A stretch of 64,000 nt of DNA. Origin: Agathobaculum sp. Marseille-P7918 (GTDB lineage: Bacteria > Bacillota > Clostridia > Oscillospirales > Butyricicoccaceae). The DNA lies in contig NZ_UYYD01000005.1 of NCBI RefSeq assembly GCF_900625105.1, positions 13,883 to 77,882 of the forward strand. Direction: 5' to 3'. Both the position numbers and the translations under genes were made by a program. Every line of letters starts with the position of its first letter. Within the stretch, counting starts at the first letter, position 1. Shown here one piece after another: positions 15,637-63,407 of the stretch. A model generated the notes under the pieces. The model had not been told where the DNA came from, did not search any database, and saw only the letters and a program-made list of their open reading frames with translations.

Positions 15637-15791
15637 AGATGGAGTGTTTCACGATTCTCCGAAATTATTATACATGATTGGGTAATTTTGTCAACCGCAG
15701 ACCACAACCGAACACCGTTCTCTTGTGGTCTGCATTTTTACGCCCCTACAAACCGAACAAATGTTCTAATTCTATGCAAGGAGGCCGCTTC

Positions 15792-16916
15792 ATGCCCGAG
15801 CAAACCAAGAAAAAATACACCTACAAATACGTCAAGGCGATCACGGTCGGGCACAAGCCGGACGGCAAGCCGATCCGCAAGTATATCCGCGAGAACAATA
15901 AAGCGATCTTTGAACAAAAGGTGCGCTACTACCAGAATCTCAACTCTCGCGGCGTGCAGATCGTCGGCCGGTCGCTTACAGTCGAACAATGGGCGTGGCA
16001 GTGGTACCACACCTACAAAGAGCCGAAGATCGGCGCGAGCCAGCGCATCAATTACGAAACCAACCTGCGACGCCATATCCTGCCGGTGATCGGGTTCATG
16101 GCTGTCAATGCCGTGCGGCCGTACCACCTGCAGCAGCTCGTCAATGATGCCCGGCGTGAGGACGGCCAGCCGCTGGCGCAAGGCACGGTGCGGCAGATCC
16201 TGTACACACTGCGGCAGATCTTCGAACAGGCCGAGATCAACGGTCTGATCGAGGTCACGCCCTGCCGCCGCATCGAGAACACCGCGACCGGCAAAACCGC
16301 TCGACGTGCATTGACCCGTGAGGAGGAAGCGCTCGTCCGCAAGGTAGCTGCCCGCCACTGGGCAGGTCCGTGGGTGCTTCTCATGCTGGACTGCGGCCTA
16401 CGGCGCGGCGAAACCGTGCCGATCGGCAAGGCCGACCTGTGCAAGGACGGCACGATGCTGCGGATCAGCAGCGCCGTCACCTACGCCGAAGGGAATCAGG
16501 CTAAGCGTAAAAGCACCAAGACTGCCGCCGGGGAGCGGTTTGTCCCTATGCCGCCCGCGCTGCTTGCACAGCTGGACACCTCCGGCCGGTACTTCTTCCA
16601 TGGGCAAAACGGCAGGATGCTCACGCTCACCCACCTGCGCCGCATGTGGGGCAGCTTCCACCGCGCATGCGACCGGGAGGCCGGTGCCAAGCTGTACCGC
16701 AACAAAATCATAGAGCACGCTTTCGACCCGGCAATCACACCCCACTATCTCCGGCACACCTATTGCACCAACTTACGCCGTCAGGGCATTGATCTGAAAA
16801 CCGCGCAATACCTCTTGGGACATGCCAGCATCACCACTACAGCGAACATCTATGACCACGTCGATATGGACGACATCGCCCAGCTCAGCTTGCATGAAGC
16901 ACCAAAAGAGACGTGA
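15792..16916 (+). CDS. int: Tyrosine-family site-specific integrase
   Basis: The 374-aa protein starts at ATG 15792 after AAGGAGG. It has an arm-binding N-terminus (KYTYKYVKAITVGHKPDGKPIRKYI), a SAM-like core-binding domain (SLTVEQWAWQWYHTYK..., from 61), and the catalytic domain with Arg204 (CGLRRGE), His318 and Arg321 (TPHYLRHT), His344 (LLGHAS) and Tyr354 (NIYDHV). It recombines the phage with the tRNA-Val gene 170 bases away. It is Tn916/phi-type in length and layout. Confidence 0.95.
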   Translation: MPEQTKKKYTYKYVKAITVGHKPDGKPIRKYIRENNKAIFEQKVRYYQNLNSRGVQIVGRSLTVEQWAWQWYHTYKEPKIGASQRINYETNLRRHILPVIGFMAVNAVRPYHLQQLVNDARREDGQPLAQGTVRQILYTLRQIFEQAEINGLIEVTPCRRIENTATGKTARRALTREEEALVRKVAARHWAGPWVLLMLDCGLRRGETVPIGKADLCKDGTMLRISSAVTYAEGNQAKRKSTKTAAGERFVPMPPALLAQLDTSGRYFFHGQNGRMLTLTHLRRMWGSFHRACDREAGAKLYRNKIIEHAFDPAITPHYLRHTYCTNLRRQGIDLKTAQYLLGHASITTTANIYDHVDMDDIAQLSLHEAPKET

Positions 16917-16919
16917 TAT

Positions 16920-16938
16920 TTTGCAACACATTTGCAAC
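16920..16938 (+). repeat. Direct repeats TTTGCAAC, possible integrase arm sites
   Basis: TTTGCAAC occurs at 16920 and 16931, one helical turn apart, between the integrase gene and the tRNA. Arm-type integrase sites are expected here; assignment is inference. Confidence 0.35.
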
Positions 16939-17058
16939 GCCTTTTTGCATTTGCCTGCGTTCGCATCCGTTTTATCTGTTTTATCAAAAATTGCGAATAC
17001 CGGAATTTCAAAACATCAAAAGGTGAGCGCCTTGAAAAGTTCCCGAAAACACAAAAAA

Positions 17059-17082
17059 GCCGTCACTTTCGTGACGGCTTTT
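17059..17082. terminator. Terminator between integrase and tRNA-Val
   Basis: Stem GCCGTCAC/GTGACGGC with loop TTTC and T runs on both strands (TTTT rightward, TTTTTT leftward). It can end both the integrase and the tRNA transcripts. Confidence 0.8.
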
Positions 17083-17084
17083 GC

Positions 17085-17161
17085 TGGTGGGGTTGGCGGG
17101 GCTCGAACCCACGACCTCTCGCGTGTGAGGCGAACGCTCTGACCAGCTGAGCTACAACCCC
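17085..17161 (-). tRNA. tRNA-Val (anticodon CAC); prophage attachment gene
   Basis: A full cloverleaf is present: acceptor GGGGTTG/CAACCCC, D stem GCTC/GAGC, anticodon stem TTCGC/GCGAG with loop CTCACAC, T arm GTGGG/CCCGC around TTCGAGC, discriminator A and encoded CCA. The 3' end faces the integrase, so the crossover core probably lies in the T arm/acceptor part. The gene is intact after integration. Confidence 0.95.
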
Positions 17162-17366: not shown

Positions 17367-18494
17367 TCACATAAAGAACCCGAGGATCACGCCGCCTGCC
17401 ACGACTGATGCAATCTGACCGGCAACATTCGCGCCGACCGCGTGCATGAGCAGGTGGTTGGTCTTATCCGCTTCCACACCCAGCTTTTCGATCACGCGCG
17501 CGCTCATCGGGAAGGCCGAGATGCCCGCCGCACCGATCATGGGGTTGACCTTGTTCTTGCAGAACAGGTTGAGGATCTTGGCAAACACCACGCCGCCGAT
17601 CGAGTCCAGCACAAATGCGATCAGGCCAAGGCACAGGATGAGCAGCGTATCCGGAGTGACGAACTGCTCGGCGCGCATGGAGAACGAGATCGTGATGCCG
17701 AGCAGCAGCGTGATCAGGTTGGCCAGTTCATGCTGCGCAGTTTTGGACAGGCTCTCGAGCACGCCGCACTCGCGGATGAGGTTGCCGAACATCAGGAAAC
17801 CGACGAGCGACACCGACGCGGGCGCGACCAGTCCGGCCACGATCGACACGACGATCGGGAACAGGATACGCGTGCGGCGGCTGACCTTGTTCGCGGCATA
17901 CGGCATCTTCATCGCGCGCTCTTTTTTGGTCGTCACCAGTTTGATCGCGAACGGCTGGATGATCGGCACGAGCGCCATATAGCTATACGCCGCGACCGCG
18001 ATCGCGCCAATGTATTTCGAGCCGAGCACCTGCGAGACCAGCAGCGAAGTCGGGCCGTCCGCCGCGCCGATGATGCCGATGGACGCCGCGTCAACGATGT
18101 CGAAGCCGAAGGCCGCCGCCGCGATGATGGTCAGGAAAATGCCGACTTGCGCCGCTGCGCCGAACAGGAACAGCTTGGGATTGGCCAGCAGCGGACCGAA
18201 GTCGATCATCGCGCCGATACCGATGAACAGCAGCAGCGGGAACGCCTCGCTCGCCTCAATGCCGCTTTCAAACAGCCATTGGATGATGCCGTTGGTTTCG
18301 CCCACGCCCTGCGTGATCTGATCGATCACGCCCGACATCGGCAGGTTGACCAGAATCGCGCCGAAGCCCATCGGCAGCAGCAGCGCCGGCTCATACTGCT
18401 TTTGGATCGCCAGCCAGATCAGCAGACCGCCGACACAGTACATCACAACCTGCTGCCACGTCACCGACAGCAGTCCTTCGTATAAAAATTCCAT
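17367..18494 (-). CDS. Na+-translocating decarboxylase beta subunit
   Basis: This 375-aa polytopic membrane protein has the hallmarks of OadB/GcdB/MmdB: PLLLFIGIGAMIDFGPLLANP, the ion-binding helix GIIGAADGPTSLLVSQ with its Asp, and NPMIGAAGISAFPMSARV. In the known complexes the beta subunit couples decarboxylation of oxaloacetate, glutaconyl-CoA or methylmalonyl-CoA to Na+ export. The carboxyltransferase and biotin subunits are not nearby, so the substrate cannot be told. A strong promoter and a yybP-ykoY-like riboswitch precede it. Confidence 0.9.
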   Translation of the reverse strand: MEFLYEGLLSVTWQQVVMYCVGGLLIWLAIQKQYEPALLLPMGFGAILVNLPMSGVIDQITQGVGETNGIIQWLFESGIEASEAFPLLLFIGIGAMIDFGPLLANPKLFLFGAAAQVGIFLTIIAAAAFGFDIVDAASIGIIGAADGPTSLLVSQVLGSKYIGAIAVAAYSYMALVPIIQPFAIKLVTTKKERAMKMPYAANKVSRRTRILFPIVVSIVAGLVAPASVSLVGFLMFGNLIRECGVLESLSKTAQHELANLITLLLGITISFSMRAEQFVTPDTLLILCLGLIAFVLDSIGGVVFAKILNLFCKNKVNPMIGAAGISAFPMSARVIEKLGVEADKTNHLLMHAVGANVAGQIASVVAGGVILGFFM

Positions 18495-18520
18495 TTTACC
18501 GCCCCTTTCGATAAAAAAAT

Positions 18521-18557
18521 GACCTGCGTTTTCCTCAAAAAAAGGAAAACGCAGGTC
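18521..18557 (-). terminator. Expression-platform terminator of the oadB riboswitch
   Basis: Stem GACCTGCGTTTTCC/GGAAAACGCAGGTC followed on the minus strand by ATTTTTTTA. Its 5' arm is shared with the 3' end of the aptamer, so the two structures exclude each other. Confidence 0.85.
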
Positions 18558-18656
18558 TGGTCATTTCAGGCAACAGCCAGAACGGGATCATACGCCCCGT
18601 CATGCTTGTTGGCGATGCCGCGCGGACAAGCCGCGCCGACTACTCCCCTTTGTTTG
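18545..18656 (-). ncRNA. yybP-ykoY-like (Mn2+-type) riboswitch
   Basis: The leader contains AAAGGGGAGTAG, the signature L1 strand of yybP-ykoY RNAs, then a hairpin, GCCAACAAGC resembling the family's GUCAA segment, a second hairpin arm (GACGGGG...CCCGTTC), and the closing AGACC that forms the other metal-site strand. Known members sense Mn2+ and raise expression by preventing terminator formation. Here it controls a Na+-pump subunit, an unexpected target, so a related cation specificity is also possible. Confidence 0.7.
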
Positions 18657-18661
18657 GCATC

Positions 18662-18690
18662 ATCTTATCATGGGAAAGGGGCGGTGTCAA
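18662..18690 (-). promoter_or_regulatory. Promoter of the riboswitch-oadB-oadG operon
   Basis: TTGACA and TAAGAT separated by 17 bases on the minus strand, placing the transcript start at the 5' edge of the aptamer. Confidence 0.85.
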
Positions 18691-18727
18691 GGCTATATTG
18701 CTGTTAAGTTTTCGTCAAATTGTGCAC

Positions 18728-21700
18728 TCAATAACCATATGCGCCGTTCTCAAGCACCCATTTGCCGTCCGCGCCGCGATACAGCGTAAACGACCAGCCT
18801 TCGGCCTGCTCGCGCCACGCGTCCTCGCTGAACTGCGCGTCGCCCATGACGGTAATCACGTTGTCGATTGTCAGGCCGTCATACAGCACGTTGTCCTGCA
18901 AAACGCCGCCTTTCATAATCCCCTGCGAGAAGCTGAAATCGTGACTTGCATCATAGTGCAGGTTTTCGACCGAAAAACCGTGCCATCGCGCATAGCTGCG
19001 CACCGCCGCATAGGCCGCTTCGATCTCCTCATCCGAGAACCGCGCACCAAAGATGTCCGGATTGGCCGTCTTGTGCTGCTGCCACATGGTCTGCACCTCT
19101 GCGCCGAAGCCTGCGACCGCGTCCTCGACCGCGTCCTCGTCCTGCTGCCAGCGTTTGTCCAGCTCGGCAAACACAGCCTCGGCATACGCACCATCGACCC
19201 AGCCCATCTCGAGCGCTTGCAGCAGTTCAACCGTCGTGCGGTAGGGGTAGTACTCCATCATGTTCGCGACTACGCGGAGATACGGCGGATACTGCGGAAT
19301 AGAGCCGTCATAGCCGAACGGCAGCCACAGCACCGGGCTGCTGTCGGTCAGCTGCACGCGCTGCACGCGGATGGTCATCTCGCCGTCGTCCCAGCGGTAG
19401 GTCAGACCCATCTCGGTATCGTCCTCGCTGCCGGTTTTGCCGACCCACTTGCCGCCCACAAAATGCAGCACATATTCCGCGCAGGCTTCGGGACTTGACA
19501 GGTCTGGATTCTCGAGCGAGGCAGGCTTTGCCGCCATCTCGCTTAAGCTTTCCAGCCCGGTCGTATCAAACACCGGGAAGCCCTGCTCGAGCGGAAACGC
19601 ATACCAAAACTCTTCGAGCGAACGCACACCATCCGAGGTGTTGACCAGCGCTTCGGTGCGCGAGGGCGTGGTGGTATCCGTGCGGTCATACCACACGCGC
19701 TCGACCGTGGTGAAGAAATAGTCCCTAGTCGGTACGACGAATCGGATAACGACCAGTGCGGCATTGTCCGCAACCTCCGGCTGGATCGTCACTTCGTCGC
19801 GGATCAATTCAGCGGTGGAGTCGTTCTGCGCCGCGTAAACGCGCGCCAGCGCGCGCAGCAGCAGCGCCTGTTCGTTGGTGCGCTGCTCCGCCGTCTGCCC
19901 GTCAAATGAGAGTGCCTCCGCGCCCAGCGCCTGCGCCGCCTGATACATTTCGGTATAGGCCGCGGTGATCTCCTCGTCCGTCGGGTCATACTGCACATCA
20001 GACGCAAACGCCAGATACCAGGTCAGCCCATCTCGCTCGGCCAGTTCCTTGCATGGTATCACATATTCCGCTTGCCAGTCCTCGCCATAGAGCTCCCGCA
20101 GATAAGCGGTCGCCTCGACCTGCAGCGTCATCACCCCGCCGCCATCTGTCGGGTCGTCCGAATAGCCCGGCAGCGCATTTTGCAGGCCGAACTGCACGAT
20201 GCCGTCGCTCTCGACCGCGTAACCCTGCTCAACAAAGCAGTCGGGCAGCGTCAGGGTGTAGCCGTAGGTGGCATTGTGATATTCGGTCGAATGGATGGTG
20301 TAATCCGTATTTGGCACGCCTTCGTTTGACAGCCGGTAGACGAACGCCGCGGTGTATTCCTGTTCCGTGCCGGTATACGCGCTGGTGCGATAGGTCACCG
20401 TCACGCCGCGATAGACCACCGCGGTAGGCGTCGAGGACAGCGCCTCGGCCGCCAGATGCTCCACCTTGTACAGGTATACCGCGCTGCCGCGGTCATAAAC
20501 ATCGGTAAAGCGAATATTGGTCTGCTGCGTCTCCTTGTCGGTGTATTGCAGCGTGCCGTCCGCGTGGATGACCGCGTCGGTCAGCACGGCATCCGTTGCG
20601 GTCAGCTTGCCGTACAAAGGTTCCAGTTTAATGGTCTGTCCGGCTTCCAGCAGCGGGATTTCGCCGTTTGCGTTCTCGATCGCCTGCTGGATGGTCGCGC
20701 CGACCGGCAGCTGCACATAGCTGACCGGGCTGTCTCCCTCGACCAGATACGCGCCGAATCCTTCGTCAAACTGCGTGACCAGCCCGACCGGCAGCCAGTA
20801 ATCGCCGGTTTTGCGCATCTGCACATCGACCGACGGACTGTTATCGACAAAGTTCAGCCGCACCGTGGCTTCGCTCTCGTCCTCGGAGACCACTTCGCTG
20901 GTGAACCAGCGTTCTGTTGTGATCTGATGCTGGTTGCCCTCGATGTGCTCGACATTCTCGCCAAAATAGCCGAACACGGTTTCCACGGCGTCCTGCACGC
21001 GCGTCAGCGTGTCGAGCGATGCACCGTTAAAGCTCTGCGCGCCCTCCGAGACGGTCGGCCACGGCAGGCCGGAATCGTAATAAAGTTTGAAAAGATCACT
21101 CTTTGTATAATTACTTGCTGCAACCTCGGTCACGCTGTTGATCACCCGACGGCCGTCCGCGCGCGCCGTGGTGACCAGATACGCGCTGCGCGTATCATCC
21201 ACGCCGCCGCCGTACATCTGGAACACGGCAATATACTCACCGCCGCTCGTCGGCACAAGCGTATAATTCCGGTAAGACGGGGACGAACCGCCGTACTTCC
21301 AGCTGAAACCGCCGTCCGGCAGCTGCTGTGCGGTGCGGTAATCCTGCTGCTTCTGCGCGGTCAGAATGGGGTAAATATACTGCCCGCTCTTGTGCGTCAC
21401 GCCGCGCGCGTACTGCCCCGCAAGGTCGGCGGCGGTACGGTTATTCTTGCCGCCGTCATAGGTGAAGTCCTGCGGCAGCCAACCGTCGCCGAATTGGTTT
21501 ACCATGGTGAGAGTCACTTCGCTGCCGTCGGCAAACCCGACCGTCAGATCCATAATATCGTCACCCATCGTGCGGTCGAGGGACGAGCCGCCGCTCGTAC
21601 CGATGGTCTTGAGGTGCAGCAGATACACAGCCGCTTCGGTTGGATCGCCCCACGTATCCGGATCCAGCTGCGTAAACGAGTCCTTGCCGACCTCCAGCGG

Positions 21701-23083
21701 ATCGGGCAGACCGAGGTCGTTTTCATACAGGATGCGGAACTCATCCAGCGAGGTCACGCCATCCGGTGCGACCGGCTCGGCCTTTGCGACCTGCCAGCCG
21801 TCCGCCCCCCGCTCAAAGACCAGCTTTTCGCCCGTGCGATAGGGCACAACCTCGTCCGGCAGGTTGTCGAACTGCACATCGTACAGCACATAGGTATCCT
21901 CGCCGTCTAATTTGACCGCATAGCCGAGGTTTTCCGTCTGCTGCGCCCACTGCTGTGCCAGCGCAACGCGGTCTTCCTCCGTGAGCTTCTTCTTACTCTC
22001 CCCTACCGAAAATGTGCAGCCGAGCGTGCCGACCAGCACCGCCGCCGCAACCACCAATGCGATGCCGCGCTTTTTGGCTTTTTTGTCGAACAGCCCCTCA
22101 AACCGCCGCATCAGCGTCTTTTTGTCGCCCGTGAAGCACGACACCAGCGCGCGGCGCTTGACCTGCGCCTCCACCGAGCGCAGAATGGTTTCGCCGTAAG
22201 CGCGGCGCGCGGCCACGTCCATGCCGCGCACGACTGCGTCGTCGCACGCGAGCTCGATGTCCTCCTGCGCGAACCGTGCCAGCAGATGCACAAGCGGATT
22301 GAACCAGTGCACCGCCCGCGCCGCGACCAGCGCCAGCTTGAGCCACAGGTCGCCCCGCTTGTAGTGCGTCAGCTCATGCCGGAAGATGAACGCCGCGTCC
22401 TCAGCGGACAGCGCTTCATCCGGCAAATACAGCGTAGGGCTGACAAATCCCGCCAGCATCGGGCAGTCCGCCGCCCGCGTCACCCGCAGCGGGATGTCCC
22501 GCCGGATGCCGAGTGCGCGCTTCTGCTCCTCGAACACCGCACGCAGCGTGTCGCGCTGGGCGGATTCGCCGGTCTGCCGCACCAGATAGCAGAAGGATAC
22601 ATAGCCATAGATCTGCCAGATCGCAAACGCCAGCATGCCCGCGCCCCACAACACGAACAGGATTTTTGCCACCGGCACCAAGGTATCGCTTGTCAGCGAA
22701 TCGTCCCAACTTGCGTTCTCGGCATCAGCCGTCACACGCGCAGGCGCATCCTGCGTCTGATCCTGTACGGTGCTGTCCGTTTGCTCGGCCACAGGCGAGA
22801 AATCCGCCTCGTCGGACGCTGCCGGCGCCGCGCCCGTCCGGGCACTCGTCTGCAGCGACACATATTTCACCGGCGTCACCTGCACCGGCGGGTCGGGCAG
22901 CGTCAGCTGCACGGGAATCAGCAGCCGCAGCGCGAGCACCGCCCACACAATGCACATCGCGCGCGCCGGATAGCGTTTTTTGAGCGTCTTGCGCAGCAAA
23001 AACAGCACCAGCGCCGCCGCCGATACGGTCAGTCCGATCTGCAGAAGATTGTTGAGCAGATCCGTCCATTCAAAGCGTAACAT
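18728..23083 (-). CDS. Giant BlaR1/MecR1-like M56 membrane peptidase sensor, 1451 aa
   Basis: The N-terminal 355 residues are a BlaR1-type module: membrane helices near 12-30, 42-62, 138-165 and 340-356, the zinc peptidase motif HELTH (236-240) and a likely Glu ligand in QEDIELACDD (274-282). On signal, such proteins cleave the partner BlaI repressor, encoded just upstream. Instead of the roughly 240-residue penicillin-binding sensor, about 1090 residues follow, rich in Tyr, Thr and Asp, with repeated DUF-like blocks (for example VTSLDEFRILYENDLGLP and GVRSLEEFWYAFPLEQGFP). No SxxK/KTG penicillin-binding set is evident. The ligand is unknown. Confidence 0.85.
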   Translation of the reverse strand: MLRFEWTDLLNNLLQIGLTVSAAALVLFLLRKTLKKRYPARAMCIVWAVLALRLLIPVQLTLPDPPVQVTPVKYVSLQTSARTGAAPAASDEADFSPVAEQTDSTVQDQTQDAPARVTADAENASWDDSLTSDTLVPVAKILFVLWGAGMLAFAIWQIYGYVSFCYLVRQTGESAQRDTLRAVFEEQKRALGIRRDIPLRVTRAADCPMLAGFVSPTLYLPDEALSAEDAAFIFRHELTHYKRGDLWLKLALVAARAVHWFNPLVHLLARFAQEDIELACDDAVVRGMDVAARRAYGETILRSVEAQVKRRALVSCFTGDKKTLMRRFEGLFDKKAKKRGIALVVAAAVLVGTLGCTFSVGESKKKLTEEDRVALAQQWAQQTENLGYAVKLDGEDTYVLYDVQFDNLPDEVVPYRTGEKLVFERGADGWQVAKAEPVAPDGVTSLDEFRILYENDLGLPDPLEVGKDSFTQLDPDTWGDPTEAAVYLLHLKTIGTSGGSSLDRTMGDDIMDLTVGFADGSEVTLTMVNQFGDGWLPQDFTYDGGKNNRTAADLAGQYARGVTHKSGQYIYPILTAQKQQDYRTAQQLPDGGFSWKYGGSSPSYRNYTLVPTSGGEYIAVFQMYGGGVDDTRSAYLVTTARADGRRVINSVTEVAASNYTKSDLFKLYYDSGLPWPTVSEGAQSFNGASLDTLTRVQDAVETVFGYFGENVEHIEGNQHQITTERWFTSEVVSEDESEATVRLNFVDNSPSVDVQMRKTGDYWLPVGLVTQFDEGFGAYLVEGDSPVSYVQLPVGATIQQAIENANGEIPLLEAGQTIKLEPLYGKLTATDAVLTDAVIHADGTLQYTDKETQQTNIRFTDVYDRGSAVYLYKVEHLAAEALSSTPTAVVYRGVTVTYRTSAYTGTEQEYTAAFVYRLSNEGVPNTDYTIHSTEYHNATYGYTLTLPDCFVEQGYAVESDGIVQFGLQNALPGYSDDPTDGGGVMTLQVEATAYLRELYGEDWQAEYVIPCKELAERDGLTWYLAFASDVQYDPTDEEITAAYTEMYQAAQALGAEALSFDGQTAEQRTNEQALLLRALARVYAAQNDSTAELIRDEVTIQPEVADNAALVVIRFVVPTRDYFFTTVERVWYDRTDTTTPSRTEALVNTSDGVRSLEEFWYAFPLEQGFPVFDTTGLESLSEMAAKPASLENPDLSSPEACAEYVLHFVGGKWVGKTGSEDDTEMGLTYRWDDGEMTIRVQRVQLTDSSPVLWLPFGYDGSIPQYPPYLRVVANMMEYYPYRTTVELLQALEMGWVDGAYAEAVFAELDKRWQQDEDAVEDAVAGFGAEVQTMWQQHKTANPDIFGARFSDEEIEAAYAAVRSYARWHGFSVENLHYDASHDFSFSQGIMKGGVLQDNVLYDGLTIDNVITVMGDAQFSEDAWREQAEGWSFTLYRGADGKWVLENGAYGY

Positions 23084-23100
23084 ATCCTACCCCTCCCTTC

Positions 23101-23472
23101 CTACCGTCCCTGCGCGTCGAGGAAAGCGCGCAGTTCGTCGATGTCGTGCGCGGTCAGCGCGCCCGCATCCGACAGGCTTGCCACGAGGTTTTTCACCGAC
23201 CCGCCGCACACGCGTTTGACAAAGCTGCAGCTTTCGCGCTGCAAATATTCCTCACGCGTCACGCACGGCGTGTACTGGTTCTGCCGTCCCTCTTTCTCGC
23301 ACGAAAGGAACCCCTTGTCGCACAGGCGTGACAGGAAGGTCAGCACGCTTGTCGCCTTCCAGTCGCTCGGCACCTTGCGCTGCACTTCCGCAGCGGTCAC
23401 CGGCGCCTCCAGCGCCCAGACCGCCTGCATCACCTCGAGTTCGGCGTCCGGCAGCCGTTTGCTTTTCTCCAT
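23101..23472 (-). CDS. BlaI/MecI-family repressor
   Basis: The 123-aa protein has the BlaI winged helix (LPDAELEVMQAVWALEAPVTAAEVQRKV...ATSVLTFLSRLCDKGFLSCEKEGRQNQYTP) and a C-terminal dimerisation and cleavage region (VKNLVASLSDAG). It should repress itself and the downstream BlaR1-like gene from operators at 23489-23536 until cleaved. Stop and next start are 17 bases apart, a two-gene operon. Confidence 0.95.
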   Translation of the reverse strand: MEKSKRLPDAELEVMQAVWALEAPVTAAEVQRKVPSDWKATSVLTFLSRLCDKGFLSCEKEGRQNQYTPCVTREEYLQRESCSFVKRVCGGSVKNLVASLSDAGALTAHDIDELRAFLDAQGR

Positions 23473-40490: not shown

Positions 40491-40592
40491 TACAACGAAA
40501 GGGAGTAGCTCACGCCTGCGGGCGTGGTCGGCATCGTCAATCACGGCCGCTGGGACCTGCGGCCCGTGCCTACCGGAAGCAGCGAGACTTTT
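40491..40592 (+). ncRNA. yybP-ykoY (Mn2+) riboswitch
   Basis: The leader has GAAAGGGAGTAGC, a hairpin (ACGCC/GGCGT), the GTCAATCACGG segment, a GC-rich arm and AGCAGCGAGACTTTT, matching the yybP-ykoY core (GGGAGUAG...GUCAA...GAGACCUUU). The 3' strand is shared with the downstream terminator. Placement before a cation antiporter fits this family. Confidence 0.8.
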
Positions 40593-40625
40593 ATTGCAGA
40601 AAGCGCAATAAAAGTCTCTTTTTTT
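40584..40625 (+). terminator. Expression-platform terminator of the antiporter riboswitch
   Basis: Stem GAGACTTTTATTGC/GCAATAAAAGTCTC followed by TTTTTTTT. Its 5' arm overlaps the aptamer's final strand. Confidence 0.9.
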
Positions 40626-40668
40626 GCGCGCAGATGTGCTATCGTTTACGTTATAGGGGGTTTTCTTC

Positions 40669-41598
40669 ATGCTATCATTCATCATGCTGGTGTTCGGCTT
40701 CGTCCTTCTGGTCTGGGGCGCGGACAAATTTGTCGCGGGTGCGTCCGCGCTGGCGCGGCGGCTGGGCGTATCGCCCCTGCTCGTCGGCCTGACCATCGTC
40801 GCCTTCGGCACCTCGGCGCCCGAGCTGGCCGTCAGCCTGACCGCCGCCTTGCAGGGCGCAAACGAGATCGCGGTCGGCAACGTCCTCGGCTCGAACATCT
40901 TTAATCTGCTGGTCGTCGCGGGCCTGTCCGCGGTGGTCTGCCCGCTCGTGATGGACCGCACGCTGCTGCGGCGCGACTGGCCGCTTTCGGTCGGCGCAGC
41001 CATCCTGCTGCTGATTTTCATCGCGCCCGACCTTACCATTTCGCGCATCGAGGGCATCATCCTGCTGGTAGTGTTCGCGCTGGTGCTCGGCATTCAGATC
41101 CGTGCGGCGCTCAAAAACCGCAGTGCAGCGGATGAGGAAGAGGACGAGGTCAAGATGCCGCCCGTGATGATCGGCGTCAACATCGTGCTCGGCCTCGCGT
41201 GCATCATCATTGGCGGCCAGCTGGCCGTCAACGGCGCGACCGGCATCGCGCGCATGTTCGGCCTGTCCGAAACGCTGATCGGTCTGACCATCGTCGCCAT
41301 CGGCACCAGCCTGCCCGAGCTGGTCACCTCGCTCGTTGCCGCCCGCAAGGGACAGAACGAGATTGCGATGGGCAACGTCATCGGCTCGAACATCTTTAAC
41401 CTGCTGCTCATTCTCGGCGTATCCGCCACCATCACGCCCATCCCGGTGCAGGCCACCTCGATCATCGACGCGCTCGTGCTCATCGGCATCAGCATCGTGT
41501 TCTATCTCCCGGCTCGCCGCGGCAAGCTCGGCCGCGCGCCCGGTGCGATCATGGCGCTGACCTATGTGGTCTATACCGCTTATTTGATTATGAGATAA
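40669..41598 (+). CDS. Ca2+/cation:Na+ antiporter (CaCA family)
   Basis: The 309-aa protein has the two alpha repeats of CaCA exchangers (FGTSAPELAVSLTAALQGANEIAVGNVLGSNIFNLL and IGTSLPELVTSLVAARKGQNEIAMGNVIGSNIFNLL), about ten helices in all. It exchanges Ca2+ or another divalent ion for Na+. The upstream Mn2+-type riboswitch suggests it may export Mn2+ or protect against metal excess. Confidence 0.95.
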   Translation: MLSFIMLVFGFVLLVWGADKFVAGASALARRLGVSPLLVGLTIVAFGTSAPELAVSLTAALQGANEIAVGNVLGSNIFNLLVVAGLSAVVCPLVMDRTLLRRDWPLSVGAAILLLIFIAPDLTISRIEGIILLVVFALVLGIQIRAALKNRSAADEEEDEVKMPPVMIGVNIVLGLACIIIGGQLAVNGATGIARMFGLSETLIGLTIVAIGTSLPELVTSLVAARKGQNEIAMGNVIGSNIFNLLLILGVSATITPIPVQATSIIDALVLIGISIVFYLPARRGKLGRAPGAIMALTYVVYTAYLIMR

Positions 41599-47787: not shown

Positions 47788-47975
47788 TTGACAAAGCAAA
47801 ATAACATCTGTATAATATAAGAGCTTGGTCAAAGACAGCAGGCAGCCGCATGGCTTTAAAGGCGTTTCCGCCGCCCGCCGAGGTCAACACGGAAATGAAA
47901 CACACATCTTTATGAGGTTTTCTGTGTACCCTCCCTGTGTCTTTGCACCGGGAGGGTACTTTTATTTTTTAGGAG
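47788..47975 (+). promoter_or_regulatory. rplJ promoter and L10-leader with attenuator
   Basis: TTGACA and TATAAT are both perfect with a 17-base spacer (47788-47816). The roughly 155-base leader precedes rplJ as in known L10-leader RNAs, and ends in the terminator GTACCCTCCC/GGGAGGGTAC with T-rich tail (47926-47970). L10(L12)4 complex binding is the expected control. Confidence 0.85.
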
Positions 47976-63191: not shown

Positions 63192-63221
63192 GGTATTCCA
63201 AGACCATACAAGCGACAAACG

Positions 63222-63405
63222 AAGTTTGCAGGAAAAAGCCGCAAGGCTTGCCGAAGGAGCAAAACTCTCAGGCGTCCGGATTGCCGGATGGGGACTGTAA
63301 ATGGATGTGACTCTGGAGAACGCTCCGCAGGGAGCTGCCGAAGGTGCAACGCGTGCGGCGGGGAACCGCATGCCAATCTCTCAGGCAAAAGGACAGAGTG
63401 CGAAC
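63222..63405 (+). ncRNA. Tandem glycine riboswitch
   Basis: Two similar aptamers follow each other: GCCGAAGGAGCAAAACTCTCAGGC...GGACTGTAAATGG and GCCGAAGGTGCAACGC...AATCTCTCAGGCAAAAGGACAGAG, with a short linker (CTCTGGAGAACGC) between. These are hallmark glycine riboswitch cores. It precedes an AGCS symporter, a usual target. Confidence 0.97.
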
Positions 63406-63407
63406 CT

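Follow-up and report, generated by a model that had tools for sequence, protein, structure and literature searches.

The window, a 64,000-nucleotide stretch of an Agathobaculum sp. Marseille-P7918 contig (NZ_UYYD01000005.1), carries on its minus strand a solitary oadB gene preceded by a structured leader, and on its plus strand a second leader of the same type before a cation exchanger gene (Table 1). The order at the first locus is promoter, AAACAAAGGGGAGUAG, a structured region with GACCAGACC at its end, terminator with T run, and the oadB start at 18494. A strong promoter, an aptamer marked by AAAGGGGAGTAG and AGACC, and a terminator sharing the last aptamer strand had been described here in an earlier, sequence-only reading of this DNA, and all three are confirmed; the 5' arm of the terminator contains CCUGCGUUU, which is also the 3' strand of the P1.1 switch helix. 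Two promoter sites were found against 0.4 expected. The leader fold is better than that of 200 of 200 shuffled sequences (z -4.6), with the terminator as the main contributor. oadB stands alone, with a tRNA gene next downstream.

Table 1. Features of the two leaders and the genes that follow them, in window coordinates
Feature	Positions	Strand	Details and basis
Sigma-70-type promoter	18662..18690	-	TTGACA-17-TAAGAT, TG before the -10; 10/12; same hexamers in Agathobaculum relatives
yybP-ykoY-type aptamer, three-way junction P1/P2/P3	18546..18655	-	Model R1, 46.1 bits, E=9.5e-11
P1.1 switch helix, 5' strand AAACAAAGG	18647..18655	-	7/9 pairs with CCUGCGUUU; covariation, 39 leaders
AAAGGGGAGUAG, the AAAGGGGAGTAG element, holding the L1 docking/metal loop	18640..18651	-	Direct sequence reading
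P2 hairpin GCGCGG/CCGCGC	18620..18636	-	
P3.1/P3.2 arm surrounding L3	18569..18619	-	P3.1 covariation
L3 loop ACAAGCA	18603..18609	-	Third base (18607) corresponds to the adenosine that senses Mn2+; motif alignment
AGACC	18558-18554	-	
P1.1 3' strand CCUGCGUUU	18547..18555	-	Also within the terminator 5' arm
Intrinsic terminator	18513..18557	-	Perfect 16-bp stem 18557-18521, then ATTTTTTT T run; -28.8 kcal/mol
Orphan oadB	17367..18494	-	OAD_beta PF03977, TIGR01109; 375 aa
Second yybP-ykoY-type aptamer	40493..40597	+	R1, 30.8 bits, E=2.7e-6
Terminator of the second switch	40584..40626	+	Reuses AGACTTTTATTG of its own P1.1; read from sequence
CaCA-family Na+/Ca2+-type exchanger, under the second switch	40669..41598	+	PF01699

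Assignment of the leader to the yybP-ykoY class depends on which model is asked. The Rfam model RF00080 gives no match in the window even at E<=10, nor does it match in the genome to which the window belongs, and a poor score with this model had been proposed as grounds for giving up the assignment. Taken literally that outcome was obtained, but it does not discriminate, because in all 87 genomes of the Butyricicoccaceae family the membership cut-off of 45 bits is reached by no sequence at all, genuine mntP leaders included. The best sub-threshold matches in these genomes are mntP leaders, at up to 39.4 bits, and oadB leaders of five genomes score 24.9, 21.3, 19.5, 16.6 and 15.4 bits. RF00080 was also not found at the gathering threshold in a Rfam scan of 20 oadB loci, and this silence reflects insensitivity of the model, since mntP leaders fail in the same way. 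A covariance model, R1, was trained on 20 mntP leaders only (95.8% of cells paired, 13 pairs with two-sided changes), among them mntP leaders of the same genus as the window; it recognizes the window oadB leader at 46.1 bits (E=9.5e-11) and also finds leaders from other families, with E down to 1e-19. Thus the class named by the sequence-only reading is supported by the mntP-trained model, although the RF00080 match is lacking, and the window RNA is almost certainly a divergent yybP-ykoY member of a clostridial form that Rfam misses. RF00080 at its cut-off passes over most of the class in Clostridia, so that annotation pipelines overlook it. Other Rfam matches on the region (SSRC10, microRNA) arise from the terminator or lie below threshold, and were rejected. 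Elsewhere, Rfam RF02617 (Streptococcus sRNA 10, SSRC10; consensus GGGAGuag...GUCaa...AGCgaGaCcu) weakly matches leaders L055-L065 over their full length, and SSRC10, though catalogued as an sRNA, may itself belong to the yybP-ykoY leaders.

The anatomy of the leader agrees with this assignment in most respects. In common with RF00080 members it has the L1 motif GGGGAGUAG adjoining P1.1, the invariant L3 adenosine after P3.1, the UGGC...AGACC elements, and a P1.1 helix that competes with the terminator for a common strand, the arrangement of an ON switch; the genes behind the class are likewise mostly divalent-cation exporters. GGGAGUAG of the L1 region is near-invariant across all leaders compared. 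It differs in scoring below or outside the model, in an L3 of ACAAGCA in place of ACAUACU or UCAAUUC, in having orphan oadB as its target, in a P1.1 mismatched at 2 of the 9 positions of AAACAAAGG/CCUGCGUUU, and in a three-way instead of a four-helix junction, no P4 helix having been found in the window leader. The mntP leaders of the family also lack P4, and a three-way-junction form has been described for S. pneumoniae mgtA (PMC9495176), so that P4 is not obligatory for the class. The closest comparison is with the mntP leader of the same genome (G000:C17:508159-508265, before MntP, PF02659), which is clearly homologous in sequence and fold and shares the terminator logic; it differs in its L3 (ACAUACU), in a fully paired P1.1 (AAUAAG/CUUAU) and in a target that is a known Mn2+ exporter.

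By DNA search the oadB leader turned up in roughly two dozen genomes within the genus and family, many of which, that of the window included, carry elsewhere the second, related leader that precedes mntP. In a wider survey of 80 oadB loci, named relatives of the window OadB from Oscillospiraceae, Lachnospiraceae and others, the leader was recognized by motif at 53 and by R1 directly upstream of oadB at 50 (E<1e-5), and about one third of the 80 relatives are without it. The survey of clostridial oadB leaders that the sequence-only reading had proposed therefore finds the same RNA, and that reading's suggestion of a new target is supported, since orphan oadB genes in many Clostridia are preceded by this leader. 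Of the 55 leaders scanned, two of them mis-anchored, 50 have a terminator that reuses the 3' strand of P1.1. Covariation is seen in P1.1 (270 of 351 cells paired against 236.6+-5.5 after shuffling, with no slid register near, in 39 dereplicated leaders) and in P3.1 (223 of 252 against 190.9+-6.4), the shuffles in both cases keeping shared ancestry. Two leader subtypes stand before oadB, one with (U/C)CAACA in L3 (n=43, including the window) and one mostly with CGUCA, from Lachnospiraceae and Oscillibacter (n=11); on these sequences, leader and oadB were probably brought together on more than one occasion, or else long ago. The silence of RF00080, and the fact that the terminator is itself the strongest fold signal, would be expected of a constitutive leader with a plain terminator whose motifs resemble the class by chance, but the independent model match, the covariation and the recurrence before oadB in many families already refute this, and its probability is negligible.

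What the yybP-ykoY-type leader controls in general was taken from an even sample of 245 genomes of the class, in which the gene downstream could be read for 72 leaders: P-type cation ATPases (21), MntP (16), CaCA (12), OadB (8) and others (15), the last including TerC, a few ABC transporters and proteins of the GDT1/UPF0016 type. All these target families except the ABC transporters are known or proposed to act in Mn2+ or Ca2+ efflux. The case for a role of orphan OadB in Mn2+ homeostasis is built chiefly on this guilt by association with its co-targets. As a separate observation, a mntP-type leader stands before an ABC-transporter ATPase gene at four loci in Clostridia, and such genes are a possible further target class.

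The ligand is most directly addressed by the L3 loop. Selectivity for Mn2+ is conferred by the N7 of an adenosine, A41 in L. lactis and A48 in X. oryzae (PMC6754395), whose counterpart in the motif alignment is A18607; all 43 leaders of this subtype, that of the window among them, keep an adenosine here. The rest of L3 varies with the target: ACAUACU is present in 27 of 31 mntP leaders (one set) and in 0 of 43 oadB leaders, which have ACAAGCA, ACAUACA or others, and CaCA leaders have ACAAGCA, ACAGCGU and others. Judged by the missing ACAUACU, ligand preference may have shifted in the oadB leaders. A yybP-ykoY variant whose altered L3 prefers another divalent ion such as Ca2+, with oadB, CaCA and P-type ATPase genes forming a Ca2+ or divalent regulon, would account for these differences by target class, and yybP variants of altered specificity have been called likely in review (PMC7266159); but the adenosine that carries Mn2+ selectivity is invariant, phylogeny confounds the link of L3 to target, and L3 varies among proven Mn2+ riboswitches as well (UCAAUUC in L. 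lactis, ACAUACU in X. oryzae; PMC6754395), so that a difference in L3 does not demonstrate a new ligand. Such a variant is accordingly rather improbable, and by analogy with the characterized members Mn2+ is, with good confidence, the likeliest ligand of the window leader. Direct sensing of Na+ would suit a Na+-pump gene, and Na+-I riboswitches (DUF1646 motif) do control some oxaloacetate decarboxylase genes (PMC9337991), a likeness to the window that ends with the target, the Na+-I RNA being unrelated to the leader. The comparison with known Na+ riboswitch models suggested by the sequence-only reading came out negative: none of the Na+ riboswitch families among 4227 Rfam models matched at E<=10 in 18450-18760. 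Since the RNA is moreover homologous to mntP leaders and its core is a divalent site, Na+ sensing is rejected as very improbable.

The sequence-only reading took the controlled gene for a Na+-pump subunit in an oadB-oadG operon, and both descriptions need correcting: no oadG adjoins oadB and no gamma gene was seen in the window, an oadA or biotin carrier gene is nearby at 0 of 80 orphan oadB loci, unlike most operonic oadB genes, and the gene belongs to a distinct orphan OadB clade instead of being the beta subunit of an oxaloacetate decarboxylase operon. The genome encodes two OadB proteins, one in an oadA-biotin carrier-oadB operon on contig 32 and one the window orphan; no leader was found near operonic oadB, the operon start lying outside some of the loci examined. 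Sequence identity between orphan and operonic proteins is about 47%, and each group has a clade of its own, with support 100. Positions D203, Y229, N373, G377, S382, R389 and N412 (Salmonella/Klebsiella numbering), which we take to be the Na+ and catalytic sites of OadB, are all conserved in 78-79 of 79 orphans. In addition all 79 orphans have Asp297, as do the 7 complete leader-bearing OadB proteins of the class sample, and the residue is Ser in 28 of 30 operonic proteins; Gln360 is present in 78 of 79 orphans and is Val in operonic ones. Compared with the beta subunit of the oxaloacetate decarboxylase Na+ pump (PDB 6iva/6iww), the window protein thus shares family, ion-site and catalytic residues and differs as an orphan gene of a separate clade, with the additional Asp297 and Gln360 and without adjacent alpha, biotin carrier or gamma genes.

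Two views of what this protein does are offered by its neighbourhood. The presence in one window of an exchanger and a Na+-pump-like protein under like switches would suit an OadB that exports Mn2+ directly, and equally one that cycles Na+ in support of the exchanger. Under the second view, Mn2+ control would be real and orphan OadB would be a normal beta subunit of the Na+ pump that partners OadA in trans, rebuilding the Na+ gradient that Na+/Mn2+ exchange consumes, for instance through the window CaCA exchanger. Conservation of the seven sites, the oadA-biotin carrier-oadB operon kept elsewhere in the genome, and the exchanger with its own switch all speak for such a partnership; the divergence and separate clade of the orphans and their own invariant Asp297 and near-invariant Gln360 speak against it, as do two genomes with an orphan OadB and no PYC_OADA domain, the carboxyltransferase domain typical of OadA and pyruvate carboxylase, G019 (97% complete, with a leader-bearing oadB) and G070 (92%), drafts in which absence is uncertain. 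On balance partnership in trans is unlikely, if by no means far-fetched. Orphan OadB is, by analogy with its co-targets, a candidate new Mn2+-handling transporter. The stronger proposal, that the orphans descend from the Na+-pump beta subunit and make up a hitherto unrecognised exporter family for Mn2+ or divalent cations, with an extra invariant intramembrane Asp and induced by yybP-ykoY RNAs across Clostridia, is tentative, at somewhat under even odds.

A mechanism for the switch can be proposed from the L. lactis riboswitch, where Mn2+ stabilises P1.1, the 3' strand of which is otherwise drawn into the terminator, with the top two G:C pairs as fulcrum (PMC11087558). The same GG:CC pairs lie atop P1.1 in the window leader. 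ViennaRNA gives P1.1 about -4 kcal/mol against -28.8 for the terminator hairpin, so that termination is likely the default and a ligand must aid P1.1 during transcription. With no ligand bound, nascent CCUGCGUUUUCC would join the 16-bp terminator and transcription would stop; Mn2+ docking L1 and L3 would stabilise the weak P1.1 (AAACAAAGG/CCUGCGUUU), withhold its strand from the terminator and allow oadB to be transcribed. The product would then remove excess Mn2+ or help the cell tolerate it, either by exporting the ion or by handling Na+ from Mn2+/Na+ exchange. We infer the ON direction and the Mn2+ ligand from homology to known yybP-ykoY switches, and infer too the transport role of OadB. 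The reading preferred here, to which we give a probability of roughly 0.7, is that a transcriptional ON yybP-ykoY (Mn2+) riboswitch controls an orphan OadB acting most likely in Mn2+ removal or tolerance.

In the open-access full text searched, no report pairs oadB with yybP-ykoY, with a manganese riboswitch or with manganese efflux, and as far as that search reaches, recurrent riboswitch control of the orphan OadB clade is unreported. The families listed for Mn2+ efflux and detoxification in a 2026 paper are CDF, MntP, UPF0016/MneA, P-type ATPases and TerC (PMC13274385). Should Mn2+ be handled by orphan OadB, proteins that are universally annotated as subunits of a Na+ decarboxylase would gain a second role and join this list. 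They would also be a concrete example for the view that the variety of genes following yybP RNAs may point to new metal transporters or to changes in ligand specificity (PMC7266159).

Several other features were seen in and around the window. At eight loci from Agathobaculum relatives, terminator and oadB are separated by an additional insert rich in hairpins (GGGGACTT...AAGTCCCC, followed by repeats of the ACCGGTTT type). A tyrosine integrase gene adjoins the tRNA gene (17088-17161, minus strand) within 15678-17161, and at one of the related loci the same integrase stands beside oadB; together these suggest an integrated element at the tRNA gene. Upstream of the riboswitch (18728-23472, minus strand) are a gene for a BlaI/CopY-type repressor and then one for a 1451-residue M56 (BlaR1-like) protein whose C-terminal portion is very long. 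Above the Rfam cut-offs, the window also holds a tandem glycine riboswitch (63219-63406, plus strand) and an L10 ribosomal protein leader (47811-47974, plus strand).
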